A model generated the notes under the pieces. That model did no database searches. It was not told the origin of the DNA and saw only the letters and a program-made list of their open reading frames with translations. Position numbers and translations under genes: made by a program. This document shows, in pieces, positions 4,474 to 42,206 of a stretch of 42,206 bases of DNA; positions within the stretch are counted from its first letter, which is position 1, and every line of letters begins with the position of its first letter. The stretch is from Lachnospiraceae bacterium (GTDB lineage Bacteria; Bacillota; Clostridia; Lachnospirales; Lachnospiraceae), in contig JAFOEY010000029.1 of the NCBI GenBank assembly GCA_017387565.1, positions 1 through 42,206 on the forward strand, written 5' to 3'.

Positions 4474-5085
4474 ATGGATGACAATCGACTGCAAAAACAA
4501 ATGGAATTCTGCAGATTGATTGATGCAGAGAAGAAAATCGGCCGTCAAACCTATCTTGCTGATGCGAGTCGTAAGGAAAACGATGCGGAGCATGCCTGGC
4601 ATATGGCGATTATGACATTGCTTTTGAGCGAATACTCCAATGAAAAAATCGATGTATTAAAGACAGTCAGTATGCTTTTGATACATGATTTAGTAGAAAT
4701 ATATGCAGGTGATACTTATGCATATGATGAAGAAGCAAAAAAGACGCAAAAGGAAAGAGAATTAGCGGCGGCTAATAAACTGTTTGGAGTACTTCCCAAG
4801 GATCAGGGTCAATACCTGAGAGGATTATGGGAAGAATTTGAGGCATGGGAAAGTGCTGAAGCAAAATTTGCGCATACCATGGATAATGTACAACCAACGA
4901 TGTTAAATCATGCATCCGACGGAAAATCCTGGGCAGAAAAAAAGGTAAAAATCAGCCAGATTTTGGGTCGTAATGAGCGAACCAAAGAAGGCTCTGAAAA
5001 ATTATGGGAATATGCATATAACAACTTTATCAATCCGCATGTAGAACAGGGACATATTATCGATGATGTGAATGAGGGTTGCTGA
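4474..5085 (+). CDS. HD-domain phosphohydrolase (YfbR/HDDC2-like)
   Basis: This 203-residue soluble protein carries the metal-binding HD signature: His-40 in DAEHAWHMA, the His-Asp pair 71-72 in LIHDLVEIYAGDT and a distal Asp near residue 137 in AHTMDNVQP. The EIYAGDT extension is typical of the YfbR/HDDC2 branch, whose tested members remove phosphate from deoxynucleoside monophosphates. The precise substrate here is inferred, not seen. It is coupled to the DUF1292 gene. Confidence 0.83.
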   Translation: MDDNRLQKQMEFCRLIDAEKKIGRQTYLADASRKENDAEHAWHMAIMTLLLSEYSNEKIDVLKTVSMLLIHDLVEIYAGDTYAYDEEAKKTQKERELAAANKLFGVLPKDQGQYLRGLWEEFEAWESAEAKFAHTMDNVQPTMLNHASDGKSWAEKKVKISQILGRNERTKEGSEKLWEYAYNNFINPHVEQGHIIDDVNEGC

Positions 5086-6321: not shown

Positions 6322-9300
6322 ATGAAATTGCGAAAAACATACCAAATTGCATTGTTTGTAGCAGCCTGTATATTAATAAATTATTTTGGGAAAAGCATCG
6401 CAACTACCCTGCAACTGCCCTTATGGCTGGATGCGTTTGGGACGGTGCTTTCAGCCTATGTTTTAGGTCCGGTTTGTGGTGCTATTGTGGGATTGACCAA
6501 TAATATTATATACGGCTTTCAGGATCCGATTGCATATCTTTACGGTCTTACGAGTATTGCAATCGGTATTGTTGTTGGATTGTTTGCAAAAAGAAAATAT
6601 TTTGAAGATGTTTTTCATACACTGAGTGCAAGCGTGGTCGTAACACTGATTTCTGTCATTATTTCTTCTGCCTTAAATATCTGTTTCTATCAAGGAAACA
6701 CCGGCAATCTGTGGGGTGATGGTGCGATCCTGTATTTGCAGGAAAGGAATTTTCCGTCGATTATTGCTTATTTCACTGGTGAGTTTTATGTCGATTTTTT
6801 AGATAAATGTATCATATTGATTGCTTTATATCTTTTGATCCGGGTTGTTCGTTTCTATCGAAATAAGAAATTGCATAAATCGGTACTTCATAGTTTGATG
6901 TTTATCCTGATTTTGACAGGAGTATTTGGGTTTGCCCGTCCGGTAGATGCCAAAGAGGCAGAGGACGATTCCGGTAATTATGTGCAGACGGTGTATAACC
7001 GTGACAACGGGCTTCCATGCGACACTGCCAATACGGTTGTTCAGACCAATGATGGTATTTTATGGATTGGCACCTATGCTGGTTTGTATCGTTATAATGG
7101 AAGCGAAATTGTCCGGGTGGATGAATTTGATACCGTCAAAAATGTCAATTGTCTGTACGTGGATGAAGAGGGGCGTCTGTGGATTGGAACCAATGATAAC
7201 GGACTTGCTATCTGCATTAACGGAAAACTGGCAAATGTAGTGGATGAAGATGACGGACTGCCGTCCAATTCCGTTCGTAGCATTGTGCAGGGGGCACAGG
7301 GACAGTACTATGTAGGAACTACGGATGAAATGCAGATTGTCAGTCTGAGCGGTGGTCTGAATTTATGTAATACAATTGACGAAATCCACTATGCAGTCAG
7401 TTTGACAGCCGATGAATCCGGGAATGTCTGCGCTGTGGATTCGCAGGGCTGTCTGTATCTGATTCAGGATGAGAAAGTAGCCAGAAAAGTAGAAATAAAC
7501 AGCGAGAGCAGACAATATACCTGTGCAAAATTCGGTCCTGACGGTTTATTATATTGCGGAACATCTGCAAATAATCTGGAAATATTTGAAGTGGCTGACA
7601 ACACATTAAAGAAAAAAAGTGTTCGTTTCTGCAGCACCTTACAATATTTAAACAGTATTTATTTTGATGAAGACGGTAAGCTTTTTGTATGTGCTGATAA
7701 TGGAGTTGGTTATCTTGATGATGACAATGAATTTGTCATGATCAGTACAGGAGGGTTTAATAATTCCATCGATAATATGACCATGGATTATCAGGGAAAT
7801 ATGTGGTTTGCATCTTCCAGAATGGGATTGCTCAGACTTTGTTCTTCCAATATAACCAATTTTTATAAAATGGCAGGGATGGAAAATAAGATGGTCAATT
7901 CCATGACCCGTTATCAGGATGATCTTTATGTTGGAACCGATTCGGGACTGGATATTATCGATACAGAGGAAATGAAACCGATCTTTAATGAGCTGACAGA
8001 AGCATTGGAAGGAACCCGTATCCGATGTGTTAAGACGGATGCAAACGGAAGTTTGTGGATTTGTATTTACGGAAAAGGCGTCTGGGAAGTAACGGATCAG
8101 GAAATATATGAATATAACAGTCAAAATAGTTCTGTTGGTGATTGGGCGCGTCTGGTTTTACCACTTTCGGATGGTACAGTAGCGGTTGCAACGGAAAGTG
8201 GTGTCAGTTACATCGCCGATCACAAAGAAACGCATACTTTTACCTATAATGTAGATTTGAGCAATACGATGATTTTGAGTTTGCTGGAACTGAAGGATTC
8301 TTCTCTTTTGGTCGGAACAGATGGCGGCGGCATGGTTTTGATTAAAAATCAGGAAGTGGTTAAGACCTTTACAAGAGCTGACAGTGGACTGACATCCAAT
8401 GTTATTTTACGAACCGTTGCGGATGAGAAAGAAAATGGTGTGTTTATTATTACCAGTAACGGAATTTGTTATATGGATGTCAAGCAAGAGATTCGTGATT
8501 TAAAAAATATTCCTTATTATAATAACTATGATTTAATTGTTAGCGAAGATGGGCGGCTTTTTATCTTAGGCAGTGCCGGAATTTATGTAGTAAATCGGGA
8601 TGAATTACTGAGTGGCGAAACCGTTAATTATGAATTAATTGATTTAAAGCTTGGTTTGACAGATAGTTTAACTGCAAATTCATGGAATTACATAGAAGAC
8701 GGTTACCTTTATCTGTCCTGTGCAACCGGAGTATACGGTATGGCTTTTGATTCTTATCAGGATGAAGCGAAGTCCTATCGTATGATGGTTTCCAGTGTCC
8801 AATTAGATGGCGAATCCTATGAGGTAGAACGTGGAGAAACGATTGAAATTGGTCGTGATGTCAATAAAATTGAAATTTTCCCGGAAGTAATTAATTTTAC
8901 ATTGGAAAATCCTTATGTACAGTACTATCTGGAGGGATTTGACGAAAAGAAAACAGTTGTTTTACAGAGCGACTTAAGCAGTATTGTTTATACCAATCTT
9001 CCTTCCGGTAACTACAAATTTCATATTGCCGTGTTAGATCGTACACAGAAAAAAATGTTGGAAGAAAGCGTTTATGCTATTTCAAAAGAGAAGGCAATCT
9101 GTGATAATGACTGGTTTACGGTATATATGATTGTCGTTCTGGTTATGGCTGTAGCATGGCTGACATGGTTTCTTATGCGGACACAAATCCAGCGTACCCT
9201 TGATATGCAGCGCAAGGAGATTGCATTTGCCAAAAGACAGATTGAAATGGGAAATGAAACCATTCTTGCTATTGCGCGTACCGTGGATGCAAAGGACGAA

Positions 9301-9873
9301 AACACCAGTCATCATTCACTTCGTGTTGCAGAATATTCCGTTATGATTGCAAAAGAATGCGGAATGTCGGATGAAGATTGTGAAAATCTCCGGAAAATTG
9401 CTATGTTGCATGACATCGGTAAAATTGGTATTCCGGACCGAATTTTAAATAAGCCTGCGAAACTGACCGATGAAGAATATGAGATTATGAAGTCGCATGT
9501 AACAAAGGGTGCGGAAGTGTTAAAAGACTTTACCCTGATTGATCATGCTGCGGAAGGTACTCTGTATCATCATGAACGGTACGATGGAACCGGTTATGTC
9601 AGTGGACTGAAAGGGGAAGAAATTCCTCTTAATGCAAGAATTATCGGTATTGCGGATGCATTTGATGCAATGACTTCCAATCGTGTATATCGTAAAAAAC
9701 AGGATCTGGGATATGTATTAGGCGAATTGAAAAAAGGTCGTGGAACACAGTTTGATCCCAAACTGGTAGACATTTTTCTGAATTTAATTGAAAATGGAAA
9801 AATCAATGTGGAGCAACTCTTCCATGAAGTGGAAAAGAGCGGATTTGATAATCAGAAAGGAGAAGAAGCATGA
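6322..9873 (+). CDS. ECF-S-like / beta-propeller / HD-GYP receptor (putative c-di-GMP phosphodiesterase)
   Basis: This 1183-residue multidomain membrane protein starts at the ATG preceded by ACGAGGAG; the in-frame ATG at 6274 has no such site. Residues 1-185 hold about five helices resembling an ECF-transporter S component. A further hydrophobic segment ends in PVDA (residues 207-210), which looks like a signal-peptidase site. About residues 215-840 contain two-component-regulator propeller repeats (LWIGT, GLPSNSV, MWFAS, LWICI). A Y_Y_Y-like domain follows, then a helix at about 931-953 and a short coiled coil. The C-terminus is an HD-GYP domain with HDIGKIGIPD (His-Asp 1030-1031), HHERYDGTGY (1083) and DAMTSNRVYR; the usual GYP reads GYV. 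It probably cleaves c-di-GMP in response to an extracellular ligand. It overlaps the next gene by four bases. Confidence 0.88.
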   Translation: MKLRKTYQIALFVAACILINYFGKSIATTLQLPLWLDAFGTVLSAYVLGPVCGAIVGLTNNIIYGFQDPIAYLYGLTSIAIGIVVGLFAKRKYFEDVFHTLSASVVVTLISVIISSALNICFYQGNTGNLWGDGAILYLQERNFPSIIAYFTGEFYVDFLDKCIILIALYLLIRVVRFYRNKKLHKSVLHSLMFILILTGVFGFARPVDAKEAEDDSGNYVQTVYNRDNGLPCDTANTVVQTNDGILWIGTYAGLYRYNGSEIVRVDEFDTVKNVNCLYVDEEGRLWIGTNDNGLAICINGKLANVVDEDDGLPSNSVRSIVQGAQGQYYVGTTDEMQIVSLSGGLNLCNTIDEIHYAVSLTADESGNVCAVDSQGCLYLIQDEKVARKVEINSESRQYTCAKFGPDGLLYCGTSANNLEIFEVADNTLKKKSVRFCSTLQYLNSIYFDEDGKLFVCADNGVGYLDDDNEFVMISTGGFNNSIDNMTMDYQGNMWFASSRMGLLRLCSSNITNFYKMAGMENKMVNSMTRYQDDLYVGTDSGLDIIDTEEMKPIFNELTEALEGTRIRCVKTDANGSLWICIYGKGVWEVTDQEIYEYNSQNSSVGDWARLVLPLSDGTVAVATESGVSYIADHKETHTFTYNVDLSNTMILSLLELKDSSLLVGTDGGGMVLIKNQEVVKTFTRADSGLTSNVILRTVADEKENGVFIITSNGICYMDVKQEIRDLKNIPYYNNYDLIVSEDGRLFILGSAGIYVVNRDELLSGETVNYELIDLKLGLTDSLTANSWNYIEDGYLYLSCATGVYGMAFDSYQDEAKSYRMMVSSVQLDGESYEVERGETIEIGRDVNKIEIFPEVINFTLENPYVQYYLEGFDEKKTVVLQSDLSSIVYTNLPSGNYKFHIAVLDRTQKKMLEESVYAISKEKAICDNDWFTVYMIVVLVMAVAWLTWFLMRTQIQRTLDMQRKEIAFAKRQIEMGNETILAIARTVDAKDENTSHHSLRVAEYSVMIAKECGMSDEDCENLRKIAMLHDIGKIGIPDRILNKPAKLTDEEYEIMKSHVTKGAEVLKDFTLIDHAAEGTLYHHERYDGTGYVSGLKGEEIPLNARIIGIADAFDAMTSNRVYRKKQDLGYVLGELKKGRGTQFDPKLVDIFLNLIENGKINVEQLFHEVEKSGFDNQKGEEA

Positions 9874-11072
9874 GAAAGAAATATTTCGTTACTGCAATTA
9901 CTTCATTTCTGTTCATTTTATTCTTTGCATTTGTCCAATTTGTATTGGTTGACAAGGAAGAAAATAAAGAGGCTGTCCGTGTGGGGTTTCTCTATGTTGG
10001 TGATGCAGGAACACCTTATACCAATAATTTTATTAAGGCCCAGAACGATATTAAAAAACAATATGGAGACCGTGTTGAAATTATTGTAAAAGAAAATATT
10101 GCGGAAGGCAATGAAGAGGGCGCTCTAAATGAACTCGTGAATGAAAAGTGTAAGATTATCTTCTCCAGCAGTTATGGATATGGCAATACCGTAAAGCAAT
10201 TTGCCGAAAAAAATCCGGAGATAGAGTTTTGTCAGGCAACTTGCAGTAATGCAAATGAAGAACCGTTTTTGGAAAACTATCACACATTTATGGGGCACAT
10301 TTGTGAGGGGCGTTATGTGACCGGTGTTGTGGCGGGCATGAAGTTAAAAGAGATGATTGAAAAAGATCAGATTACGCCACAGGAGGCTAAAGTCGGGTAT
10401 GTTGCTGCTTTCCCATATGCTGAAGTTATTTCCGGCTATACTGCTTTTTTTCTGGGAGTACGTTCCATCGTGGATACTGCGACTATGGAAGTTCAATACA
10501 CCAATACTTGGAGTAATTACCGGATAGAAAAAAATGTGGCCAGAGAGATGATAGAAGACGGATGCGTGATTATTTCCCAACATTCGGATACAACCGGACC
10601 GGCTGTTGCCTGTGAACAGGAAAAAGGAAGTCGTGAGGTTTATCATGTAGGATACAATCAGAGTATGATTGATGTGGCACCGACAACATCCTTGATTAGT
10701 TGTAGGATTAACTGGTCGCCGTATTGTTTGAAGGCAGTGGAAGCCGTCATGAACGATAAAAAGATTGAAGATATGTTTGGGAGCGGAGTCAACAAAAACG
10801 ATGTCGGAGCCGGTTTTACGGATGAATGGGTAGAACTATTAGAAATGAATAAGAGTATCATTGCGGCTGGTACAGAACAAAGAGTAGAGAATTGTATCAA
10901 AGCTTTGGAAAATGATTCTTTACATGTTTTTGTAGGTAATTATACCGGAACCGATCCGTTTAATCCCGAAGACACCTATGATTTAAATGTGGAATACAAA
11001 GAAAATGAAACCTCCAGTGCACCGACATTCCACTATGTCTTAGATGATGTCATAACAGTGAGGGAAGAGTAA
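9870..11072 (+). CDS. BMP-family substrate-binding protein, membrane anchored
   Basis: This 400-residue protein belongs to the basic membrane protein (BMP/PnrA-like) branch of periplasmic-binding proteins, whose known members bind nucleosides. Family features are VGFLYVGDAGTPYTN at the start of the mature fold, SSSYGYGNTVKQFA and the hinge region VGYVAAFPYAEVISGY. One hydrophobic segment at residues 7-27 lacks a lipobox Cys, so the protein is probably tethered by an uncleaved helix. The ATG overlaps the receptor stop codon (ATGA), so the two are translationally coupled. No ATPase or permease gene lies nearby. It is likely the ligand-recognition partner of the HD-GYP receptor rather than part of a transporter (inference). 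Confidence 0.88.
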   Translation: MRKKYFVTAITSFLFILFFAFVQFVLVDKEENKEAVRVGFLYVGDAGTPYTNNFIKAQNDIKKQYGDRVEIIVKENIAEGNEEGALNELVNEKCKIIFSSSYGYGNTVKQFAEKNPEIEFCQATCSNANEEPFLENYHTFMGHICEGRYVTGVVAGMKLKEMIEKDQITPQEAKVGYVAAFPYAEVISGYTAFFLGVRSIVDTATMEVQYTNTWSNYRIEKNVAREMIEDGCVIISQHSDTTGPAVACEQEKGSREVYHVGYNQSMIDVAPTTSLISCRINWSPYCLKAVEAVMNDKKIEDMFGSGVNKNDVGAGFTDEWVELLEMNKSIIAAGTEQRVENCIKALENDSLHVFVGNYTGTDPFNPEDTYDLNVEYKENETSSAPTFHYVLDDVITVREE

Positions 11073-17191: not shown

Positions 17192-17376
17192 TGATACCAG
17201 GGTCAAAAGGTCATACTTTTCATGCTCGCATGAAAAAGTATAACTTTGGGACCCGCAAAACATGAGAAAGTAGCCCGATTAGGGCGGATTTCGAATGTTT
17301 TAGGATTGCGAGAGCACAAAGTGCGTAGCAATCCGTTGGTATCATGGAGGCAAAATACCTTTTGACCCCAACATCA
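17192..17376 (+). mobile_element. MITE-like element, full-length copy (185 bp)
   Basis: The left end TGATACCAGGGTCAAAAGGT and the right end ACCTTTTGACCCCAACATCA are imperfect terminal inverted repeats. TATAGA flanks both sides (17186-17191 and 17377-17382) as a candidate target duplication. Inside are hairpins around CATGCTCGCATG and GGATTGC...GCAATCC. It encodes no transposase. A reversed, truncated copy is at 42039, a copy 32 bases shorter at 29339 and fragments at 6163, 20420 and 41207. Confidence 0.75.
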
Positions 17377-26587: not shown

Positions 26588-28360
26588 ATGACAGAAGAGA
26601 TTTTTGAGGCCGTAAACGGTCAAGTGTTCGGTGTCTGGTTTTTAATCGGTACCGCACTGGTATTCTGGATGCAGGCAGGTTTTGCCATGGTGGAAGCCGG
26701 ATTTACCAGAGCAAAAAATGCAGGTAACATTATTATGAAAAACCTGATGGATTTCTGTATCGGTACAGTAACATTCATCTTAATCGGTTTTAGCTTGTTG
26801 TTGGGAGAAGATTTGATGGGCTTTATCGGTAAACCCGGATTTGATATCTTCACAAACTACGCAAATTTTGATTGGTCTAACTTCGTATTTAACTTGGTGT
26901 TCTGTGCAACCACAGCAACCATCGTTTCCGGAGCAATGGCTGAAAGAACAAAATTCTTATCATATTGTGTATACTCCGGTGTTATTTCCGCTTTGATTTA
27001 TCCGATTGAAGCACACTGGATCTGGGGCGGCGGCTGGTTAGCTCAGTTAGGCTTCCATGATTTTGCCGGTTCTTGTGCCATCCATATGGTTGGTGGTCTT
27101 GCCGCTTTAGTAGGTGCAGCAATTCTTGGACCCCGTATTGGTAAATTCCAGAAAGATAAAGATGGTAAAGTTATTAAAGTAAATGCTTTCCCCGGTCATA
27201 ACTTACCGATTGGTGCACTTGGTGTTTTCATTCTCTGGTTAGGCTGGTATGGATTTAACGGTGCTGCTGCAACAAGTGTGGAACAGCTTGGATCTATCTT
27301 TGTTACAACAACAATTGCACCTGCAATCGCAACTGTAACATGTATGATTTTCACTTGGATTAAATATGGCAAACCCGATGTTTCCATGTGCTTAAATGCA
27401 TCTTTGGCAGGTTTGGTAGCAATTACAGCTCCTTGTGATGTAACTGATGGATTTGGTGCAATTGTAATCGGTATTGTTGCCGGATTACTGGTTTGCTTTG
27501 GTGTATGGCTCTTAGATTACAAATTACATATCGATGATCCCGTTGGTGCTGTTGCCGTTCACTGTATGAATGGTATCTGGGGAACCTTATCAGTTGGTTT
27601 ATTTGCAACCAATTCTGCTCCTGGTTACAGCATTGCCAATGCAGACGGAAAAGAATTAGTAGGTCTGTTCTACGGCGGTGGATTTGAATTATTGGGATTA
27701 CAGTTTATCGGATTTATTTCTGTTGCAGCATGGGCAGTTATTACCATGATTATTGTATTCCTGATTATTAAAGCAATCTTTGGATTAAGAGTTTCCGAAG
27801 AAGAAGAAATCATTGGTCTGGATGCAAAAGAACATGGTTTACCGAGTGCATATGCAGGCTTCTCTATCATGGATATTTCCAACACCATGACAATGGAAGT
27901 AAATGCTAACACAAATCTTGGTACAGACGATTACGACGAAGCTTCTGAAGCAGCTAAGAATGCAGCAGTTTCTGTTGCAAAAGCACCTGATTTGGTACCT
28001 GCTTCCGGAATTTATAAAGTTGTTATTGTTGCAAAATTGTCAAGATATGAAGCTGTTAAGAAAGCAATGAACGACCTTGGTGTAACCGGTATGACGGTAA
28101 CACAGGTTATGGGTTGTGGTATCCAGAAAGGTGCCGGCGAGAAATACCGTGGTGTTGAAGTGGATGCAACCTTACTTCCTAAAGTAAAAATCGAAGTAGT
28201 TGTCAGTGCTATTCCTGTTGATGATGTCATCGCAGCTGCGAAAAAAGCACTCTATACAGGACATATCGGAGATGGCAAAATCTTCGTATACAATGTTGAT
28301 AAAGTAGTTAAAATCCGTACAGGAGAAGAAAACTTTGCAGCATTACAGGATGTTGAATAA
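26588..28360 (+). CDS. amt: Ammonium transporter fused to a PII signal domain (Amt-GlnB)
   Basis: This 590-residue protein joins two modules. Residues 1 to about 405 form an Amt/Rh-type ammonium channel with eleven predicted helices and family segments WMQAGFAMVEAGF, AHWIWGGGWL, DFAGSCAIHMVGG and HCMNGIWGTLSVG, including the pore histidines. A hydrophilic linker (about 406-473) leads to a complete PII/GlnB domain (about 474-588) with a T-loop of normal length (GIQKGAGEKYRGVEVD, Tyr retained) and the ATP-binding segments LPKVKIEVVV and GDGKIFV..KVVKIRTGE. In most bacteria PII is separate and plugs the channel. Here regulation would act in cis. The start has a TGAGGAGGAATGATTT site. The leader carries two terminators. 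Confidence 0.95.
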   Translation: MTEEIFEAVNGQVFGVWFLIGTALVFWMQAGFAMVEAGFTRAKNAGNIIMKNLMDFCIGTVTFILIGFSLLLGEDLMGFIGKPGFDIFTNYANFDWSNFVFNLVFCATTATIVSGAMAERTKFLSYCVYSGVISALIYPIEAHWIWGGGWLAQLGFHDFAGSCAIHMVGGLAALVGAAILGPRIGKFQKDKDGKVIKVNAFPGHNLPIGALGVFILWLGWYGFNGAAATSVEQLGSIFVTTTIAPAIATVTCMIFTWIKYGKPDVSMCLNASLAGLVAITAPCDVTDGFGAIVIGIVAGLLVCFGVWLLDYKLHIDDPVGAVAVHCMNGIWGTLSVGLFATNSAPGYSIANADGKELVGLFYGGGFELLGLQFIGFISVAAWAVITMIIVFLIIKAIFGLRVSEEEEIIGLDAKEHGLPSAYAGFSIMDISNTMTMEVNANTNLGTDDYDEASEAAKNAAVSVAKAPDLVPASGIYKVVIVAKLSRYEAVKKAMNDLGVTGMTVTQVMGCGIQKGAGEKYRGVEVDATLLPKVKIEVVVSAIPVDDVIAAAKKALYTGHIGDGKIFVYNVDKVVKIRTGEENFAALQDVE

Positions 28361-29338: not shown

Positions 29339-29491
29339 TGATACCAACGGAATGCTGCGCACTTTGTGCTCTTGCAATCCGTAAACAATCGAAATTCGCC
29401 CTAATCGGGCTACTTTCTCATGTTTTGCGGGTCCCAAAGTCATACTTTTTCATGCAAGCATGAAAAGTATGACCTTTTGACCCTGGTATCA
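29339..29491 (-). mobile_element. MITE-like element, short form (153 bp)
   Basis: This is a reversed copy of the element at 17192. It begins at the inner TGATACCAACGG and ends CCCTGGTATCA, lacking the 32-base terminal module. It is flanked by TATAA on both sides (29334-29338 and 29492-29496), a candidate 5-bp target duplication. It lies between the divergent cyclophilin and acetyltransferase genes and probably contributes to their promoter region. Confidence 0.78.
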
Positions 29492-30578: not shown

Positions 30579-31652
30579 TTGAAAACAGATTTAAATAATT
30601 CTAAAAAAAATTTTTATACCGTTACTCCGGTCCTGTTATTGGCTTTGATGATTGCAATCAGTTTTTTGGGAGTTTATATCTTCCGTGTGCAATATGATAA
30701 AAACAACTTGCAGGAGGAAATAGAGGATTACAGAAAGTATGATAAATATTATGCCATGATTACGAGCAATGACCGCGCTGACTTTTGGCAGTCTATTTAT
30801 AGTGGTGCCAAGGCAGAAGGTGAAAATTCCAATGCCTTTGTGGAACTGTTTGCAGGAAATATTGGAACCGGATACACGATGGATCAACGACTTGATATTG
30901 CCATTGCCTCAGATGTGGATGGAATCATTCTGGAAGGTGAAGATGATATTGTCTTAAAAAGAAGCATGGAAAAAGCAATCAAAAACGGAATACCGATTGT
31001 GACGGTTTCGCAGGATATTCCTGACAGCGATCGGATTAGCTATATCGGAATCAGCCGTTATAGTCTGGGACAGACATATGGGAAAGAGACGATAAAGCTG
31101 GTTGAGCATATGTTTGCGGAAAATGAGGAGTTATATAACGAAAATACGACTCTGTCAGTATTGGTGCTGATTGGAAAGGAAGCGGATAATACCGGACAAA
31201 ATCTTTTATTGACAGGGATAAAGGAGGAAATGGCAAAAAACAGTTCTTTGGCCAATCGTGTTACTGTCAGCACATATGCCGTGGATGATTCAGGTGATTT
31301 TACTGCCGAAGAATCGATTCGGGATATCTTTATCGGACAAAAGGAAGTTCCGGATATATTAATTTGTCTCAATGAAATTCATACCAATTGTGCATATCAG
31401 GCAGTCATTGATTATAACAGAGTAGGAAAAACGAATATAATCGGATATTACGATTCGAATACCATATTAAATGCGGTACAGAAGGATATTGTTTTTTCCA
31501 CTATATCTATGGATACCGCGCAGATGGGAAGATATTGCGTGAATGCCCTGAATGATTATCTGAATGAAGGCTATGTCAGCGATTATTATGCAGTAGATAC
31601 GTATGTAGTGGGACAGGATAATATCGCTGAATATATGGAGGGAGATGAGTGA
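30579..31652 (+). CDS. Membrane-anchored sugar-binding protein (XylFII-like sensor partner)
   Basis: This 357-residue protein has the type I periplasmic-binding fold of sugar ABC systems. Segments FWQSIYSGAKAEGENSN, ASDVDGIILEGED and GIPIVTVSQD match ribose/xylose-type proteins. A hydrophobic helix at residues 14-34 has no lipobox Cys and leads into a short coiled segment (NNLQEEIEDYRKYDKYY), so it is probably tethered. The start is TTG after GAGAGGA. It overlaps the histidine kinase start by one base. In Clostridium beijerinckii, the anchored XylFII binds D-xylose and works with the kinase LytS. The position and anchoring here suggest the same job, but the sugar is not determined. Confidence 0.87.
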   Translation: MKTDLNNSKKNFYTVTPVLLLALMIAISFLGVYIFRVQYDKNNLQEEIEDYRKYDKYYAMITSNDRADFWQSIYSGAKAEGENSNAFVELFAGNIGTGYTMDQRLDIAIASDVDGIILEGEDDIVLKRSMEKAIKNGIPIVTVSQDIPDSDRISYIGISRYSLGQTYGKETIKLVEHMFAENEELYNENTTLSVLVLIGKEADNTGQNLLLTGIKEEMAKNSSLANRVTVSTYAVDDSGDFTAEESIRDIFIGQKEVPDILICLNEIHTNCAYQAVIDYNRVGKTNIIGYYDSNTILNAVQKDIVFSTISMDTAQMGRYCVNALNDYLNEGYVSDYYAVDTYVVGQDNIAEYMEGDE

Positions 31653-33160
31653 TGAAAATACGAAATAAAATCAACAATCTTTCCATTCAGAAAAAATTGG
31701 TTGCAGTATACTTTTTGACGACACTGTTAGTGCTGTCGGTTAATATGTTTATGTATATCAATATCAATGTTATGATGCATCGTCTGGATCAGATTTATTC
31801 CAGTAATATTAATCTTAATACACTTTCGGATTTACTGGACCAGGTTCAAAATGATATGAATGGATATCTGAATACCAAAACAACCGATTCGATGGATGCT
31901 TATTATAAATCTTATCAGGAATACAGTGCACATCTGGAAATTTTATCAGATCAGGTTACGGGTAGCGAAGTGCAGCGTATGGAGAGAAATATCCGTAACA
32001 TGTCAGAAGAATATTTGAGTTTCACAGAATTGGCAATTGAGGCAAAACGAGGAAGAAATGTTGAAAAATACAGATATTATAATGAAGAGGCGACGACTAT
32101 TTATGAATATTTGAAATCCTATATCGGCAAGCTTAATATGTCGCAGTTTAAATATAATTCGACTAACTATATTGCGTTGTCGAAAGCGCTTCGGTATGTG
32201 GAAGTTGTTAATATGATTGTCTTTATATTTGTGGCTTTTGCGAATGTATTTCTGGTTTTGATGGTAATTCGTGATATTACCAGACCATTAACAGCACTTT
32301 CACAAGTTGCTGATGAAGTCGCTGCCGGCAATTTGGATGTTGATATGTTAGAGGTTTCATCCAAAGATGAAATCGGAGTTGTAAGTAATGCTTTTAACCA
32401 GATGATTATCAGTATCCGGAATTATATCAGCAGACTTCGTACCAGTATGGATAATGAGCGCGCGTTGAAAGAAAAAGAATTGAAAATGGAAACGCATTTG
32501 AAGGATGCACAACTAAAATATTTACAGGCTCAGATAAATCCACACTTTTTGTTTAACACCTTAAATGCCGGGGCTCAACTGGCTATGATGGAGGGAGCGG
32601 ACAGGACTTACGAATATGTCCAGAATGTGGCTCAGTTTTTCCGTTACAATATAAAAAAGGATCATGATACGGTTTCACTGAAGGAAGAACTGGAGTTGAT
32701 TGATACCTATATTTATATATTAAATGTGCGCTTTTCCGGAGAAATTCATTATGAAAAGAATATCGATGAAAAGTTAACATGCCTAATGATACCTAGTATG
32801 ATTTTACAGCCAATTATTGAAAATAGTGTTAATTATGGTATCAGAGGTATTTCGTGGGAAGGGATTATCCGCGTAGAACTGTATGAAGATAAGAATGCCA
32901 GGGTTGCACGGCTTGTTATGGAAGATAACGGAATTGGGATTTCAAAAGAGATTATTGATAAGATTATGTCAGATCAGTCATTGGAATACCATCTGGATGA
33001 GAATTCCAATGGAATTGGATTGCAGAATGTAATCAGCAGATTACGGCTTTTTTATGACAAGGAAGATATTTTTGAGATTGTATCATTGGGTGAAAATAAG
33101 GGGACACGAGTGATTATTTCCATTCCTATTCCGGATGAAAAGGAGGAAAGCTATGTATAA
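31652..33160 (+). CDS. Sensor histidine kinase, YesM/LytS type
   Basis: This 502-residue membrane kinase has helices at about 15-37 and 182-205 enclosing an extracytoplasmic helical domain that would meet the anchored binding protein. A HAMP linker (VADEVAAGNLDVDM) follows, then a coiled segment. The His_kinase domain is of the YesM class, with QINPHFLFNTLN (phospho-His-298), PSMILQPIIENSV and the ATP-binding MEDNGIGI and NGIGLQNV. It starts at the ATG overlapping the previous stop (TGATG) with GGAGGGA upstream. Its own end overlaps the response-regulator start by eight bases. It should phosphorylate that regulator when sugar is bound. Confidence 0.93.
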   Translation: MKIRNKINNLSIQKKLVAVYFLTTLLVLSVNMFMYININVMMHRLDQIYSSNINLNTLSDLLDQVQNDMNGYLNTKTTDSMDAYYKSYQEYSAHLEILSDQVTGSEVQRMERNIRNMSEEYLSFTELAIEAKRGRNVEKYRYYNEEATTIYEYLKSYIGKLNMSQFKYNSTNYIALSKALRYVEVVNMIVFIFVAFANVFLVLMVIRDITRPLTALSQVADEVAAGNLDVDMLEVSSKDEIGVVSNAFNQMIISIRNYISRLRTSMDNERALKEKELKMETHLKDAQLKYLQAQINPHFLFNTLNAGAQLAMMEGADRTYEYVQNVAQFFRYNIKKDHDTVSLKEELELIDTYIYILNVRFSGEIHYEKNIDEKLTCLMIPSMILQPIIENSVNYGIRGISWEGIIRVELYEDKNARVARLVMEDNGIGISKEIIDKIMSDQSLEYHLDENSNGIGLQNVISRLRLFYDKEDIFEIVSLGENKGTRVIISIPIPDEKEESYV

Positions 33161-34751
33161 AATTATGTTGGCAGATGATGAAGGAATTGTTATTGATTCG
33201 CTTCGTTTTATTATAGAAAAAGAATTTGGGGATGTGTGTCAGATTGAATCGGCAAAGACCGGAAGGAATGTAATAGAACTTGCGGAACATTTCAGACCGG
33301 ATATTGCATTTATGGATATTCAGATGCCGGGAATAAACGGAATTGAAGCCATGAAAGAAATCAGACTCAATAATGCGAATACCATTTTCATTGTCATGAG
33401 TGCATATGATAAATTCGATTATGCAAAAGAGGCAATCAATCTGGGTGTTTTGGAATATCTCAATAAACCGGTGGAAAAAAGTAAGATCATTGACGTTTTA
33501 AAAAGAGCTATGTCGATGATTGATAAGGATCGTGAAAAAAGAAGCGAGGAACTGATTATCCGTGAAAAGATGGAAACGGTTGTTCCTATTATAGAAAACG
33601 GATTGATTTATAATCTCTTGTTTCAGGAATATTTTGAAGAAGATGTTGAGAACTTTAAGACACTTCTGGATTTAAAATCGGACTATTGTTATATGGGTGT
33701 CTTGATATTTGGTGAAGCTCAGGAAGGAAATCATATGACAAATGCCATAGGAACCTCTGTCCGTGTTCAGGACCATTATTTTGAGGTTCGCGAAATTGTG
33801 AAAGGATATTTTCCGTGTATTATCGGTTCTGTTATGGCAAACAAAATTGCTGTATTGATACCGTCTGAGAAAGAAATACTGGACTATAATGAACGGATTA
33901 AGCTGATAGATAAAGCACGCGAACTGGTAAGGAAGCTTCGTAAAAGAACTGATGTTTCGTTCCGTATGGGCTTTGGCTCCATTGGAAAGCTTCAGGATTC
34001 CATGAAATCCTATAATGAGGCATTGCGTGCCCTGATTCAGACAGACGGCAGTGTGGCGCATGTGGACGATATTCCGATTACCTGTGATTATGAGGAAAAC
34101 TATCCGGTTGAAACAGAGCATGAGATATTCGAGGAAACCCGAAAAGGGAATGTAGACAGACAGTATATCGCCATAAATCGTTATTATGACTGGATGATTG
34201 AAAATTATGGGGATTGCGACTATGACATTAAGTTAAAGGTTCTGGAATTTGTTTTAAGAGCAGAGACCATTAGTTATAATGCTACGGGAAGAACATATCG
34301 TTTTCAATCCAGACAGGATTATCTGCCTACGATTATGGGAATAACAGATAAGGAAATGCTGCGAGGATGGTTTGTTGATAAAATGGGGCAGGCTGCACGG
34401 GAAGTGGCAAATAATATGTCAATGCAGTCCGGAGGTATTATTAATCGGGCCAAAGCATATATTCTTGCGAACTACCAGAAAGAAATATCTTTGGACGATG
34501 TATCTAGAGCCGTTGATATCAGTCCGTACTATTTCAGCAAAATATTTAAAGAAGAAACCGGTGAAAACTTTATTGAATATCTGACTTCCATCCGTATGGA
34601 AAAAGCCAAAGAATTGTTGTCCGGATCCGGTTTGTCCATGAAAGAAATCTGTGCGCAGGTGGGATATTCCGATCCGAATTATTTCAGCCGGACATTTAAA
34701 AAGAACGTTGGATTGACCCCGACAGAGTATAAGGAGAGCCAGAATGGTTAG
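33153..34751 (+). CDS. Response regulator with AraC-type DNA-binding domain, YesN type
   Basis: This 532-residue regulator has an N-terminal receiver domain with the acidic pair in LADDEG, phospho-acceptor Asp-55 in FMDIQMPG, Ser in VMSAYDKF and Lys in YLNKPVE. A long middle domain of unknown role follows. The C-terminus is two AraC-type helix-turn-helices (ISLDDVSRAVDISPYYFSKI and SMKEICAQVGYSDPNYFSR). The start is the ATG at 33153 with AAAAGGAGGAAAGCT; the frame is open from 33135. It overlaps the kinase gene and the XylF-like gene by eight bases each. Likely target promoters are those of the sugar uptake genes downstream (inference). Confidence 0.93.
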   Translation: MYKIMLADDEGIVIDSLRFIIEKEFGDVCQIESAKTGRNVIELAEHFRPDIAFMDIQMPGINGIEAMKEIRLNNANTIFIVMSAYDKFDYAKEAINLGVLEYLNKPVEKSKIIDVLKRAMSMIDKDREKRSEELIIREKMETVVPIIENGLIYNLLFQEYFEEDVENFKTLLDLKSDYCYMGVLIFGEAQEGNHMTNAIGTSVRVQDHYFEVREIVKGYFPCIIGSVMANKIAVLIPSEKEILDYNERIKLIDKARELVRKLRKRTDVSFRMGFGSIGKLQDSMKSYNEALRALIQTDGSVAHVDDIPITCDYEENYPVETEHEIFEETRKGNVDRQYIAINRYYDWMIENYGDCDYDIKLKVLEFVLRAETISYNATGRTYRFQSRQDYLPTIMGITDKEMLRGWFVDKMGQAAREVANNMSMQSGGIINRAKAYILANYQKEISLDDVSRAVDISPYYFSKIFKEETGENFIEYLTSIRMEKAKELLSGSGLSMKEICAQVGYSDPNYFSRTFKKNVGLTPTEYKESQNG

Positions 34752-35814
34752 AAGCATTATAAAAAACAATATTGTGAAAAGGATTGTTTGCTGCCTTATG
34801 ATATGTATGATGGCAGGCATGCTTTCCGGTTGTGAGAAACAGTCGGAACAGGAAGAAGTTGATCAACAAAAAGAAGATAAAATTCAAATTGGCTTTTGTT
34901 TTGATTCATTCTTAATCGAGAGATGGGAAAGAGACCGTGATATATTTGTGACAACTGCAAAGGAACTGGGCGCAGAGGTCAATGTGCAAAATGCCAATGG
35001 AGATGTGAATCAGCAGATTGCGCAGATTGAATATCTGATTGACAAAAAAATGGATGCGATTTTGATAGTGGGCGTTGATTCGGATGGGCTGGCGGAAGTT
35101 GTAAAAAAGGCAAAGGATGAAGGAATTGTTGTGATTGCGTATGACCGTATGATCTACAATGCGGATGTGGATCTGTATATTTCCTTTGACAACGAAGCTG
35201 TCGGCCGGATGATGGGTGAAGAACTGGTAAAAGCCGGTGTAGAAGGCGGCAGGGTTCTGGTTCTTGGTGGTCCGACAACTGACAATAATGTTTCCATGGT
35301 TAATGCGGGATTTGCGAAGGTCATGCGTGAAAACAACAATGAGATTGTCGATGTTATGTATGCGGATAACTGGAAACCGGAATACGCTTCCAATTATATA
35401 TATGAACATTCTGATATTCTGGATGAAATAGACGCCATTATGTGTGGAAATGACAGTCTGGCTACCCATGTAATCCGGGTTCTGGCAGAAAAAAGGAAAG
35501 CCGGGGAAATTTTAGTTACCGGACAGGATGCGGAGTTGGAAGCATGTCAGAGAATTGTGGAAGGAACACAGCTCATGACCGTATACAAGCCTGTTGAAAT
35601 ACAGGCGAAGACGGCAGCAGAATGCACGATTGAACTGATTGAAGGGAAAAAGCCGGATCAAATTAATGTCTCCATGTCTGACGGAGAATATGATGTTCCG
35701 GGGATTGTGTTTGAACCAATTGCCGTAAATGCATCCAATATGGATCGGATTATTATTGACAGTGGTTTTCACTTACGGGAAGATGTTTATTTGAATGTTG
35801 GCAACGCGGAATAA
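34744..35814 (+). CDS. XylF-like sugar-binding lipoprotein
   Basis: This 356-residue protein has a signal peptide with lipobox LSGC near residue 30, so it should be lipid-anchored outside the membrane. The mature part closely follows E. coli XylF, the D-xylose-binding protein: ERWERDRDIFVTTAKELGA, VQNANGDVNQQIAQIEYLI, IAYDRMIYNADVDLYISFDN. It is translationally coupled to the response regulator and followed by a strong terminator. It may feed the transporter encoded downstream or serve as a second sensor. No dedicated ATPase or permease directly adjoins it. Confidence 0.9.
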   Translation: MVRSIIKNNIVKRIVCCLMICMMAGMLSGCEKQSEQEEVDQQKEDKIQIGFCFDSFLIERWERDRDIFVTTAKELGAEVNVQNANGDVNQQIAQIEYLIDKKMDAILIVGVDSDGLAEVVKKAKDEGIVVIAYDRMIYNADVDLYISFDNEAVGRMMGEELVKAGVEGGRVLVLGGPTTDNNVSMVNAGFAKVMRENNNEIVDVMYADNWKPEYASNYIYEHSDILDEIDAIMCGNDSLATHVIRVLAEKRKAGEILVTGQDAELEACQRIVEGTQLMTVYKPVEIQAKTAAECTIELIEGKKPDQINVSMSDGEYDVPGIVFEPIAVNASNMDRIIIDSGFHLREDVYLNVGNAE

Positions 35815-35818
35815 CAGG

Positions 35819-35893
35819 AAAAAGATATGTACTAGCAAAAAATTGCTTTTCGACCACAAGAAGCGGACAAAAAATGCTAGACATGTCTTTTTT
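35819..35893 (+). terminator. Rho-independent terminator of the sensing operon
   Basis: A long stem pairs AAAAAGATATGT and CTAGCA (left) with TGCTAG and ACATGTCTTTTTT (right) with a single bulged base. The right arm ends in a T-run. It separates the sensing genes from the transporter genes. Confidence 0.75.
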
Positions 35894-35914
35894 GCATTTG
35901 TAAGCTCGTAAAAA

Positions 35915-35932
35915 TTTGCAGAAATTCGCAAA
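35915..35932 (+). promoter_or_regulatory. Dyad upstream of the chvE-like gene
   Basis: TTTGC and GCAAA flank eight bases, about 100 bases before the gene at 36032. A TTGCA also occurs at 35892. It is a candidate operator for the YesN-type regulator. No convincing sigma-A promoter was found beside it. Confidence 0.25.
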
Positions 35933-36031
35933 CATTTACTATTTATCATGTGCTATATTGTAAAATGTAACAAGGAGACAGATCGTTTCCTTTGGTAAAA
36001 GTATATATTTAAAAAGGGAGGAATTTCAGAA

Positions 36032-37186
36032 ATGAAAAAGAAATTACTTAGCGCAGTATTGAGCGTAGCTGTAGTTGCATCCTTGTTAGTTGGATGTGGT
36101 TCAGGCACAGAAACAACAACAAGCGAAGAAACAACAGAAACAACAGAAGAAGCTGAAGCAACAGAAGAAACTGAAGCTACAGAAGAAGCTACATCTACAG
36201 AAGGCGCCGGCACAAGAGTTGGTGTATCAATGCCTACAAAAGATTTACAGAGATGGAATCAGGATGGTGACAACATGGAAGCTGAATTAAAAGCAGCTGG
36301 CTATGAAGTTGACCTTCAGTATGCTTCTAACGATGTTCAGACACAGGTTTCACAGATCGAAAATATGATTTCAAGCGGTGCAGATGTATTAGTTATCGCA
36401 GCAATCGAAGGTTCATCACTTGGTGAAGCTCTTGATATGGCTAAAGAAGCTAACATTCCTGTAATTGCATATGACCGTTTAATTATGAACTCAGATGCAG
36501 TTTCTTATTATGCTACATTTGATAACTACATGGTAGGTACCGTTCAGGGACAGTATGTAGTAGATGCATTAGACCTTGACAATGTAGACGGACCTTTCAA
36601 TCTTGAAATCACAGCTGGTGACCCCGGTGATAACAATGCTGGTTACTTCTATCAGGGCGCTTATGATGTATTAGAGAAATACATCGAAGAAGGCAAATTA
36701 AATGTTGTTTCAGGACAGAAAACATTTGATGAATGTGCAACTCCTACATGGGCTTCAGAAGTAGCTCAGTCAAGAGCAGAGAACATCTTATCTTCTAACT
36801 ATGCAGATGGAACAAACGTAGATGTTTGGTTATGCTCAAATGACTCTACTGCACTTGGTGTAGAAAATGCTTTAGCAGCAAACTACAATGGAACATATCC
36901 GATCGTTACTGGTCAGGACTGTGATATCGAAAATACAAAGAACATGATTGCTGGAAAACAGTCTATGTCAGTATTTAAAGATACTCGTACACTTGCAAGC
37001 CAGGTTGTTAAGATGGTTGGACAGATCTTAAAGGGCGAAGAAGTTGATGTTAACGATACAACAACTTATGACAACGGTACAGGAGTTATCCCTTCATACC
37101 TTTGCCAGCCTGTATACGCAGATATTGATAACTACAAAGAATTATTAATTGACTCTGGTTACTACACAGAAGATCAGTTACAGTAA
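36032..37186 (+). CDS. chvE: Multiple-monosaccharide ABC transporter substrate-binding protein (ChvE-like)
   Basis: This 384-residue lipoprotein has its lipobox at LLVGC near residue 22. It is followed by a Thr/Glu-rich low-complexity linker (about residues 28-65) that lifts the domain off the membrane. The fold matches ChvE: VGVSMPTKDLQRWNQDG, LQYASND, AYDRLIMNSDAVSYYATFDN and SGYYTEDQLQ at the end. ChvE-type proteins bind xylose, glucose, arabinose and related sugars. Codon use is strongly biased towards preferred codons, like fba, so high expression is likely. The start follows AAAGGGAGG. A terminator-like hairpin separates it from the ATPase gene, allowing more binding protein than transporter to be made. 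Confidence 0.94.
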   Translation: MKKKLLSAVLSVAVVASLLVGCGSGTETTTSEETTETTEEAEATEETEATEEATSTEGAGTRVGVSMPTKDLQRWNQDGDNMEAELKAAGYEVDLQYASNDVQTQVSQIENMISSGADVLVIAAIEGSSLGEALDMAKEANIPVIAYDRLIMNSDAVSYYATFDNYMVGTVQGQYVVDALDLDNVDGPFNLEITAGDPGDNNAGYFYQGAYDVLEKYIEEGKLNVVSGQKTFDECATPTWASEVAQSRAENILSSNYADGTNVDVWLCSNDSTALGVENALAANYNGTYPIVTGQDCDIENTKNMIAGKQSMSVFKDTRTLASQVVKMVGQILKGEEVDVNDTTTYDNGTGVIPSYLCQPVYADIDNYKELLIDSGYYTEDQLQ

Positions 37187-37219
37187 TATCATTAATCGGA
37201 TATTCAAAATGTTTCATAG

Positions 37220-37250
37220 CAGGCGGGTGAATTAACCCGCCTGTTTATTC
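37220..37250 (+). terminator. Partial terminator between chvE and mmsA
   Basis: CAGGCGGGT and ACCCGCCTG form a perfect 9-bp stem around GAATTA, followed by TTTATT. Because the ATPase gene starts only 52 bases later without an obvious new promoter, it probably reduces rather than stops read-through. Confidence 0.72.
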
Positions 37251-37301
37251 TAATAAACACATAAAAACTATGAGAAGATTCTTTTAATTGGAGGGATAAG
37301 T

Positions 37302-38840
37302 TTGGCAAACATATTACTAGAAATGAAAAACATTACCAAAACCTTCCCCGGTGTTAAAGCTTTAGACAATGTAAATTTGCAGGTTGAAGAGGGAGAAATC
37401 CACGCACTGGTTGGAGAAAATGGTGCGGGTAAATCCACACTTATGAATGTTCTAAGTGGTATTTATCCTTATGGAAGTTATGAAGGTGACATTATTTACA
37501 ATGGAGATGTCTGTCAGTTTCATAACATTAAAGATTCGGAAGGAAAAGGAATTGTTATTATTCATCAGGAACTGGCACTTGTTCCGCAGATGTCTATTGG
37601 TGAGAATATGTTCCTCGGCAACGAAAGAGGAAGAAAAAATGCAATTAATTGGAATGAGACCTATGGTGAAGCAGATAAATATCTGAAAATGGTCGGTTTG
37701 TCCGAATCTTCACGCACACTCATAAAGGAGCTTGGTACCGGTAAGCAGCAGCTTGTGGAAATTGCCAAGGCGCTTGCCAAAAATGCCAAACTGTTGATTT
37801 TAGATGAGCCTACTTCATCTTTAAATGAAACTGATTCCAAAGCCCTGTTGGATTTAATGTTAGAGTTTAAAAAACAGGGAATGACTATGATTATTATTAC
37901 TCATAAATTAAATGAGGTTGTATATGTAGCAGATAAGATTACGGTTGTTCGAGACGGTTCTACCATTGAAACCATGAACTGTCATGAAATGGAAATCAGT
38001 GAGGACCGTATTATCAAAGGAATGGTTGGTAGAGAGATTACTGATCGTTTCCCGAAACGTCATGATGTAAAAATTGGCGATATCAATATGGAAGTAAAGG
38101 ATTGGACGGTATATCATCCGTTATATCCGGAACGTAAGGTTGTTGACAATGTACATATGAATGTCAGAAAAGGCGAAGTTGTTGGTATCTATGGACTGAT
38201 GGGAGCAGGTCGTACAGAGCTTGCAATGAGTATTTTTGGCCGTTCCTACGGAACTAATATTACCGGTACATTGACGATTAACGGAAAAGAAGTAGTACTT
38301 AAAAATCCTCGTCAGGCTATTAATGCAAAACTCGCTTATGTTACAGAAGACAGAAAAGGAAACGGCTTGGTTTTATCCAATCCAATTCGTGTCAATACTT
38401 CTCTTGCCAATATGGCAGGAGTCAGCAATCACAATGTGATTGATGTTGACAAAGAATATCAGGTCGCAGTAGAGTACAAAGATAAATTAAAAACCAAAAC
38501 ACCTTCTGTTGAGCAGAATGTCGGAAACTTGTCCGGTGGTAATCAGCAAAAGGTATTACTCGCAAAATGGATGTTCACAGATCCGGATATTTTGATTTTG
38601 GATGAACCTACCAGAGGTATCGACGTAGGTGCCAAATATGAGATTTACTGTATTATCAATGATTTGGTAGCAGCGGGTAAATCTGTTATCATGATTTCTT
38701 CTGAATTGCCGGAAGTAATTGGTATGAGTGATCGTATCTATATCATGAACGAAGCAAAAATTGTTGGTGAAATGGATGCCAGTGAGGCAACTCAGGTTAA
38801 TATTATGGCAAGCATTTTACAATCAGGAAGGAGCGAGTAA
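37302..38840 (+). CDS. mmsA: Multiple-monosaccharide ABC transporter ATPase (two nucleotide-binding domains)
   Basis: This 512-residue protein has two ATPase halves, as in XylG, RbsA and GguA. The first half has Walker [10 protein letters not shown], an atypical signature [13 protein letters not shown] and Walker [11 protein letters not shown]. The second has a degenerate Walker [10 protein letters not shown], the signature [14 protein letters not shown] and Walker [13 protein letters not shown]. It energises sugar uptake on the inner face of the membrane. The start is TTG after TTGGAGGGATAAG. The first permease gene begins two bases after its stop codon. Confidence 0.95.
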
Positions 38841-38842
38841 AA

Positions 38843-40009
38843 ATGGGTGGAATTAAAATTACAGATATTTTAAAAAAATACACAATGGTAATTGCCCTTG
38901 TTTTAGTAATAGCTTTCTTCTATTGGAAAACGGGCGGCAAGATTTTGCTTCCGCAGAATATTAACAACTTGATTTCACAAAATGCATATGTATTTATTCT
39001 GGCAGCAGGTATGTTGTTATGTATCCTGACCGGCGGTAACATTGATTTGGCTTGTGGTTCGGTTGTCTGCTTTATCGGTGGTATTGGTGCCGTTATCATG
39101 GCAGCTGATATCAATGTATGGGTTGCAGTTATTGTGATGTTAGTTGGAGGACTTTTGGTTGGTATCTGGCAGGGATTTTGGATTGCCTATATCAAGGTGC
39201 CTCCGTTTATTGCAACGCTGGCCGGTATGTATGCTTTCCGTGGATTATCCAACGTAGTTTTAAATGGTATGACAGTCGGCATCAGTAATCAGACATATTT
39301 AAATGTATTTGGTGGTGGAGCAGATTGTTATGTACCTGATTTATTCGGAAACGGTTCACTCAATCTTACCTGTCTTTTGACCGGAATCATTATTGCGGTT
39401 ATTTATGTTGCTTTTGTATTAAAAAATAGAATTAGTGCAAAAACAAAAGATTATGAAGTGCCCCCGTTGACTACAGAAGTAATTAAAATGTTTATTATTT
39501 GTGCCATTGTAATCTGGATGTTTTATAAATTGGCACAGTATAAAGGAATTCCGAGTTCTTTAATTTGGATTGTTTTGGTATTGGTTACATATGGATATAT
39601 TACTTCCAAAACAACAATGGGACGTTATCTCTATGCTGTCGGTGGTAATGAAAAGGCAACAAAACTTTCAGGTATTGATCCCAGAAAGGTATACTTCTTT
39701 GCTTATATCAATATGGGTCTCATGTCAGGTCTGGCAGGTATCTTAACTGTTGCGAGAGCATGTGGAGCACAGCCGACATTTGGACAGATGTATGAAATGG
39801 ATGCCATTGCAGCCTGCTTCGTAGGTGGTGCATCTGCATACGGTGGCGAAGGAAATGTCTTTGGTGTAGTAATCGGTGCTACTTTGATGGGTGTCATCAA
39901 CATGGGCATGAGTATCATGGGTGTTGAGGCTAACTATCAGAAGGTTGTAAAAGGTCTTGTATTGTTGGTTGCAATTATCTTTGACGTAATGTCCAAGAAG
40001 AAGAAATAA
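38843..40009 (+). CDS. mmsB: Multiple-monosaccharide ABC transporter permease 1
   Basis: This 388-residue membrane protein has about ten helices and belongs to the RbsC/XylH/GguB permease family. It shows LTGGNIDLACGS near residue 62, YIKVPPFIATLAGM and the cytoplasmic coupling region FVGGASAYGGEGNVFG. It should form the sugar pore with the ATPase upstream and the ChvE-like protein. AGGAGCGAG inside the end of mmsA serves as its ribosome binding site. The next gene encodes a clear paralogue, so the pore may be a heterodimer. Confidence 0.94.
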   Translation: MGGIKITDILKKYTMVIALVLVIAFFYWKTGGKILLPQNINNLISQNAYVFILAAGMLLCILTGGNIDLACGSVVCFIGGIGAVIMAADINVWVAVIVMLVGGLLVGIWQGFWIAYIKVPPFIATLAGMYAFRGLSNVVLNGMTVGISNQTYLNVFGGGADCYVPDLFGNGSLNLTCLLTGIIIAVIYVAFVLKNRISAKTKDYEVPPLTTEVIKMFIICAIVIWMFYKLAQYKGIPSSLIWIVLVLVTYGYITSKTTMGRYLYAVGGNEKATKLSGIDPRKVYFFAYINMGLMSGLAGILTVARACGAQPTFGQMYEMDAIAACFVGGASAYGGEGNVFGVVIGATLMGVINMGMSIMGVEANYQKVVKGLVLLVAIIFDVMSKKKK

Positions 40010-40024
40010 GGAGGAGGATGAATC

Positions 40025-42038: not shown

Positions 42039-42206
42039 TGATGTTGGGGTCAAAAGGTATTTTGACCCCATGATACCAACGGATTGCTACGCACTTTGTG
42101 CTCTCGCAATCCGTAAACAATCGAAATTCGCCCTAATCGGGCTACTTTCTCATGTTTTGCGGGTCCCAAAGTCATACTTTTTCATGCGAGCATGAAAAGT
42201 ATGACC
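42039..42206 (-). mobile_element. MITE-like element, long form, cut by the window end
   Basis: It begins TGATGTTGGGGTCAAAAGGT, the reverse complement of the right end at 17376, then continues through the inner TGATACCAACGG and the GGATTGC hairpin to AAGTATGACC. By comparison with the 185-bp copy, 17 more bases should follow outside the window. TATAA at 42034-42038 flanks it on the left. Confidence 0.78.

Follow-up and report, generated by a model that had tools for sequence, protein, structure and literature searches.

We regard it as likely that two adjacent genes on a 42,206-nucleotide contig of a Lachnospiraceae bacterium (the window, which is the whole of contig C31 in a 2.9 Mb assembly) encode a single receptor complex, a BMP-dependent, purine-responsive receptor acting on cyclic di-GMP (c-di-GMP). 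The first gene specifies a large membrane protein with an HD-GYP phosphodiesterase domain, and the second a BMP (PnrA-like) binding protein held by its own transmembrane (TM) helix. An AGGAG lies just 5' of the receptor start codon, and the two genes share four bases, ATGA, an overlap that the first-pass annotation of this DNA had reported together with the domain make-up of the receptor; we confirmed both, the latter by Pfam and NCBIfam matches. The features of the pair are as follows.

6322..9873, + strand: receptor gene, from the ATG at 6322 to the stop at 9873, 1183 amino acids, with an S-component-like membrane domain, beta-propeller, Y_Y_Y domain, TM helix and HD-GYP domain (open reading frame (ORF), Pfam, NCBIfam, hydropathy).
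6322..6930, + strand: N-terminal membrane domain, about residues 1-203, like the S-components of energy-coupling factor (ECF) transporters and 5TMR domains, whose last hydrophobic stretch leads into the propeller (NCBIfam, Pfam, hydropathy).
6994..8901, + strand: beta-propeller, about residues 225-860, presumably extracellular (Reg_prop in Pfam, 1.1e-24; ends and topology estimated).
8917..9054, + strand: Y_Y_Y domain, residues 866-911 (PF07495 in Pfam, 3.3e-7).
9094..9189, + strand: TM helix joining the propeller to the HD-GYP domain, residues 925-956 (hydropathy).
9277..9765, + strand: HD-GYP phosphodiesterase domain with LHDIGK and HHERYDGTGYV (PF13487, motifs, PmGH 4mcw at 7.7e-48).
9870..11072, + strand: BMP (PnrA-like) binding protein gene, 400 amino acids, overlapping the receptor gene at 9870-9873 (ORF, Pfam).
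9876..9962, + strand: N-terminal membrane anchor of the BMP protein, about residues 3-31, without a lipobox (hydropathy, lipobox rule).
9975..10769, + strand: BMP ligand-binding domain with Y50, S101, Y102, E185, W214, H238 and D240, the predicted purine pocket (PF02608, mapping on AtzT).

The pairing was strictly conserved. A search of 299 genomes of the family found BMP relatives in 22 genomes other than that of the window. Their identity was 46-58% (96% in G086; the copy at L044, from an uncultured Lachnospiraceae metagenome-assembled genome, is likewise 96% identical), and all were near full length except in G112, where the gene is cut by the contig. In the window and the 21 other loci with upstream DNA, a full-length receptor relative was the next gene upstream on the same strand, and the four-base overlap recurred in 15 of these 22 loci, the window included. 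The BMP and receptor genes of G112 lie at two contig ends; this genome was left outside the adjacency count and was treated as paired in the motif counts and trees. The genus search found the BMP in 3 of 9 genomes, with the receptor upstream in each, and added one locus (G683), while the order search found it in 15 of 392 genomes at E 1e-90 and added eight, again with the receptor upstream in all (one is cut by its contig, leaving the HD-GYP end alone visible). Altogether, a BMP orthologue lay directly downstream of the receptor in 31 of 31 testable loci (the window, 21 from the family, G683 and eight from the order), and chance adjacency was rejected on this count. Conservation in relatives, which the first-pass annotation had named as a check on its proposal, was thus found. 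In a class-wide sample, the BMP was detected at E 1e-90 in 3 of 391 genomes, including the window's own, all from one family; two of the order-level matches came from fragmented assemblies of a different family, one of them 9% contaminated. BMP ORFs outside 330-520 amino acids or with E of 1e-15 or above were dropped, as were L107, where the BMP ORF was not found, and a receptor fragment on a 3 kb contig (G151). The receptor search scored two candidates per genome, and its counts are lower bounds.

The BMP protein matched PF02608 at 1e-28 (100.7 bits against a curated cut-off of 24.1). It has a single N-terminal hydrophobic stretch and no lipobox by a strict rule, as the earlier claim of a binding protein held by a helix had it. 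By sequence, its only solved relatives were 3s99 and AtzT. According to passages of PMC6834077, the guanine site of AtzT consists of Tyr45, Ser97, Phe98, Glu165, Trp194, Asn218 and Asn220, and 3s99 was modelled with adenine. We used a numbering offset of 5 for AtzT, and the nine positions checked all carried the residue named in that paper. The seven AtzT binding residues then fell on Y50, S101, Y102, E185, W214, H238 and D240 of the window protein, among which Y50, S101, E185 and W214 are identical to AtzT, so that the stacking Tyr and Trp and the hydrogen-bonding Ser and Glu are kept; H238 and D240, which replace Asn218 and Asn220, are the residues of 3s99 at the aligned places. Judged by AtzT and 3s99, the window protein carries the residues of a purine pocket. 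Among the paired BMPs, Y50, E185, W214 and D240 were present in 31 of 31 and H238 in 29 of 31. Since the pocket residues are largely kept, a purine base or nucleoside is the likely ligand. The earlier label "nucleoside-type" is better worded as "purine base or nucleoside", because the closest solved relatives bind purine bases. AtzT is discussed in passages of PMC6834077 as a periplasmic transport protein, whereas the window protein is TM-anchored and tied to a signalling receptor.

The receptor begins with six hydropathy peaks in its first 200 residues. This membrane domain matched the NCBIfam model ECF_S_CD3073 at 6e-23, which supports the earlier label "ECF-S-like", though the score of 81.4 bits lies below the model cut-off of 180; in Pfam it matched 5TMR-LYT (1.6e-5) and ECF_trnsprt (4.9e-4). 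Across 25 aligned membrane domains, the window's included, ECF_trnsprt matched 15 and 5TMR-LYT 14 (Pfam, E 0.05). These matches agree with the relationship of ECF S-components to 5TMR receptors described in parts of PMC11109136, where the AxxxA motif is given as the docking site for EcfT in the ECF motor. The motif is not conserved across our alignment, occurring in helix 1 in 3 of the 24 aligned sequences with residues there, the window's being one of the three; its scarcity counts in favour of the receptor reading. A comparison of the membrane domain with solved chains by sequence gave no meaningful match (best E 0.073, then mostly antibody chains).

Similar parts are known from other receptors. 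The S-component-fold receptors (5TMR/YpdA and BtsS) also use an S-component-like membrane domain for sensing, without a conserved AxxxA; however, those in PMC11109136 are sensor histidine kinases, and the terms HD-GYP and propeller are absent from its main text. The propeller and Y_Y_Y sensor is shared with hybrid two-component proteins and with Reg_prop proteins of Xanthomonas c-di-GMP networks, as parts of PMC6637768 and PMC8463545 describe them, whereas the window receptor differs in its HD-GYP output, in a further membrane domain of several helices and in having a binding protein as partner. The hybrid two-component propeller sensors have a histidine kinase output; in contrast, the window receptor gave no match to HisKA or HATPase (Pfam, E 0.01).

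The two proteins also tracked each other in trees. In a tree of 71 BMP proteins, 23 receptor-paired BMPs formed one group (SH-aLRT 100) beside BMPs linked to ATP-binding cassette (ABC) transporters; 13 BMPs linked to hybrid histidine kinases formed their own group (100), and those linked to chemoreceptors lay among other ABC-linked lipoproteins. In the receptor tree, the 23 paired receptors again fell into one group (100), which also held two BMP-less receptors (G009 and G248). Tree distances of the two proteins were correlated over the 23 pairs (Spearman 0.52, with 0 of 2000 permutations as high). Six BMP residues (G142, Y217, Q264, W320, L372 and N379) were almost invariant among the receptor-paired proteins, unlike in the neighbouring ABC-linked BMPs. 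Both trees are unrooted and displayed with a midpoint root, and any order of recruitment is therefore one that we infer.

Several observations weigh against a purine-responsive BMP-receptor complex. The second-shell residues Thr139 and Asn169 of AtzT are R148 and G189 in the window protein, and the residues aligned to Ser97 and Phe98 (S101 and Y102) are missing in 10 of the 31 paired BMPs; for both reasons the ligand may differ, and a shift of ligand in those ten is possible, as judged from their residues. The window receptor itself carries AxxxA in helix 1 and has GYV instead of GYP, and the correlation between the trees may partly reflect shared species history. The genomes of the two BMP-less receptors gave no BMP match at E 1e-5, so the receptor can persist without the BMP; both keep the HD-GYP residues, and they are best read as later loss. 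The receptor tree also included 12 kin that share the membrane domain and propeller and have either an HD-GYP or a kinase output, and none of them had a BMP among the neighbouring ORFs shown. Both the BMP-less receptors and these kin favour the alternative in which the main ligand (a glycan or vitamin, for instance) is recognised by the propeller or by the S-component-like domain, with the BMP protein serving as a second input or as a receptor stabiliser. The strict pairing and the kept pocket residues argue instead for a ligand-binding role of the BMP protein, and we consider this alternative unlikely. As a separate observation, one of the 12 kin (L175:1659-7755) has an SBP_bac_1 lipoprotein gene 19 bases upstream of its S-component-like/propeller/hybrid-kinase receptor gene, which is the same design with another binding-protein family.

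On the output side, the receptor matched HD_5 (PF13487 in Pfam) at 5e-38. Among the 34 receptors read (32 paired, with G112 counted, and the two orphans), HD, K.H, HHE..DG.GY and D.FDAMT were present in all, and the upstream His was kept in all 33 long enough to show it (the remaining receptor is truncated by its contig). The exact GYP is absent from the window receptor; its third letter is P in 16 of the 32 paired receptors and another residue in the other 16, with the Tyr kept in all. The proline of GYP is not known to be catalytic. Loss of HD-GYP function, which had been set beforehand as a possible objection to the proposal, was rejected on these kept motifs. The receptor probably breaks down c-di-GMP, as its catalytic residues and closest solved relative, PmGH, suggest. 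An HD-GYP domain that acts on another substrate (3'3'-cyclic GMP-AMP (3'3'-cGAMP) or pGpG), or that is a catalytically weak binding module, would fit the second-closest solved relative, a 3'3'-cGAMP phosphodiesterase (5z7c, 1.3e-44), and the varied third letter of GYP, the window's included. This alternative is quite improbable in our view, since PmGH is the better match, none of the 34 receptors has lost the GY tyrosine or any of the HD, HH and D residues, and the genome holds 21 GGDEF matches. The same genome gave 15 HD_5 matches in 14 proteins (two in one frame), 4 PilZ matches and 3 flagellin matches, and with these genes c-di-GMP control of motility is plausible.

To place the missing lipobox in context, we compared BMP proteins with different partners. 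Forty non-orthologous BMP loci were picked by hand down the list among the matches listed, not at random, and partner types were assigned by BLAST against a single ABC ATPase, a single chemoreceptor and a single kinase. One locus had no BMP ORF; the other 39 comprised 26 with an ABC ATPase, 4 with a chemoreceptor, 7 with a hybrid histidine kinase and 2 untyped. Domain labels were checked for two kinases and two chemoreceptors, one of the latter from the window's genome. The seven kinase-linked loci (L118 and L129-L134) hold 13 BMP genes, in tandem pairs in 6 of the 7, which encode TM-anchored proteins and are followed by the hybrid histidine kinase gene. All 26 ABC-linked and all 4 untyped BMPs satisfied the strict lipobox rule, as did 4 of the 5 chemoreceptor-linked ones (the fifth, from the window's own genome, reads LSGC, a lipobox clear by eye), whereas none of the 13 kinase-linked BMPs did. 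Among receptor-paired BMPs it picked out 3 of 31 (L086, L216 and L219), all of them doubtful, since their cysteine is placed inside a long hydrophobic helix or at its end; three receptor-paired rows with a second partner label (L075, L081 and L092) were counted with the receptor. In this sample, anchor type thus follows the partner, with lipoproteins beside ABC transporters and chemoreceptors, and non-lipoproteins beside kinases and in 28 of 31 receptor-paired cases. In the window protein, a TM anchor and an adjoining receptor gene stand in place of the lipobox and adjoining ABC genes of a transport BMP. One untyped locus (L119, on contig C8 of G101) has three BMP lipoprotein genes in a row and no typed partner.

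A similar arrangement was seen elsewhere in the window, at 30579-41194, where a binding protein, a histidine kinase and an AraC-type regulator are followed by two lipoprotein binding proteins, an ATPase and two permeases. By eye, the binding protein at 30579, beside the kinase, has an N-terminal helix and no lipobox, while the proteins at 34744 and 36032 are lipoproteins, so that here too the anchor matches the role.

We also looked for a transporter that could use the BMP protein. The genome encodes two BMP proteins, and the other one (contig C18, L039:10216-13181) is a lipoprotein whose gene overlaps that of an sCache_3_3 chemoreceptor (methyl-accepting chemotaxis protein); four sampled relatives likewise have a BMP gene adjoining a chemoreceptor gene. 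There are four BPD_transp_2 permeases, two in the window's Peripla_BP_4 operon and two in single-permease systems, each of which has a non-BMP lipoprotein gene. The window does hold an ABC ATPase and permeases, but a long way downstream of the pair and together with Peripla_BP_4 binding proteins of their own (36032-41194), and no ECF module was seen by eye among the window ORFs of at least 100 amino acids, no ECF ATPase or T-component model having been run. The first-pass annotation was therefore right that no ATPase, permease or ECF module lies nearby, and the BMP transporter elsewhere in the genome that it had named as a threat to its interpretation was not found. A transport role of the BMP protein was rejected, since no permease partner was found in the genome; as the relatives examined keep the genes side by side, the pair looks like a nutrient sensor, not an importer. 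The alternative of an ordinary binding protein supplying a purine transporter from another locus, with the receptor merely adjacent, would suit the description of PF02608 as a transport family and the ABC-linked nearest BMPs in the tree, but it is very unlikely given that 31 of 31 testable orthologues adjoin the receptor, that the BPD_transp_2 permeases of the genome all have other binding proteins, and that the lipobox of the 26 ABC-linked BMPs is missing here.

The conserved pair, the intact HD-GYP residues and the search for a BMP transporter in the genome, which found none, thus support the sensing role first proposed. In a BMP-dependent receptor complex of this kind, the BMP protein, held at the membrane by its TM helix, would bind an extracellular purine (base or nucleoside) and would dock in a ligand-dependent manner on the extracellular propeller/Y_Y_Y part or on the S-component-like domain. 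The docking signal would then pass via the TM helix to the cytoplasmic HD-GYP domain, which would hydrolyse c-di-GMP. We infer the physical contact and the membrane topology in this scheme, as well as its ligand, its substrate, the direction of control and the behaviour controlled. For the two proteins, AlphaFold modelling from single sequences gave mean pLDDT values of 43.5 and 35.9, too low for the models to be of use.

The best reading of the pair is by analogy with NspS-MbaA of Vibrio cholerae and Sinorhizobium meliloti, in which, according to parts of PMC8967002 and PMC9993111, a separate periplasmic binding protein acts on a membrane c-di-GMP enzyme; the window pair would work in the same way with unrelated parts. 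NspS is a polyamine binder and MbaA carries GGDEF and EAL domains (PMC8967002, in part), whereas the window pair joins a TM-anchored PnrA-like protein to an S-component-like domain, a propeller and HD-GYP. In these searches, the combination was found only in the window's order, and we found no paper describing the receptor-BMP pair in the open-access literature.

Some further features of the window were noted. An HD_3/YfbR-like (deoxynucleotidase-like) gene lies at 4474-5085, two genes upstream of the pair. An ammonium transporter with a fused C-terminal P-II domain is encoded at 26588-28360. The Clostridiales-1 RNA occurs in three copies within the 42 kb, at 17192-17344 (+), 29339-29491 (-) and 42071-42206 (-), the last being cut by the contig end.

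c-di-GMP is made from a purine nucleotide. We tentatively propose, as a possibility short of an even chance, a design in Lachnospirales in which purine-binding BMPs were recruited from transport to signalling more than once, by HD-GYP propeller receptors, hybrid histidine kinases and chemoreceptors, the recruitment to HD-GYP receptors and kinases going with a switch from lipid to TM anchor. The receptor would join two sensors derived from transporters, an outside purine binder and an S-component-like membrane pocket, and the outside purine supply would set c-di-GMP. Passages of a 2022 review (PMC8846402) name only one domain family, with 27 families in the periplasmic-binding-protein clan, as studied in c-di-GMP networks. 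With this pair, an HD-GYP receptor of gut Lachnospirales has a ligand class that can be tested. The TM anchor, as opposed to a lipobox, is a simple marker that may help to separate sensing from transport binding proteins, and the pair suggests repeated recruitment of transport parts into signalling in one bacterial order.

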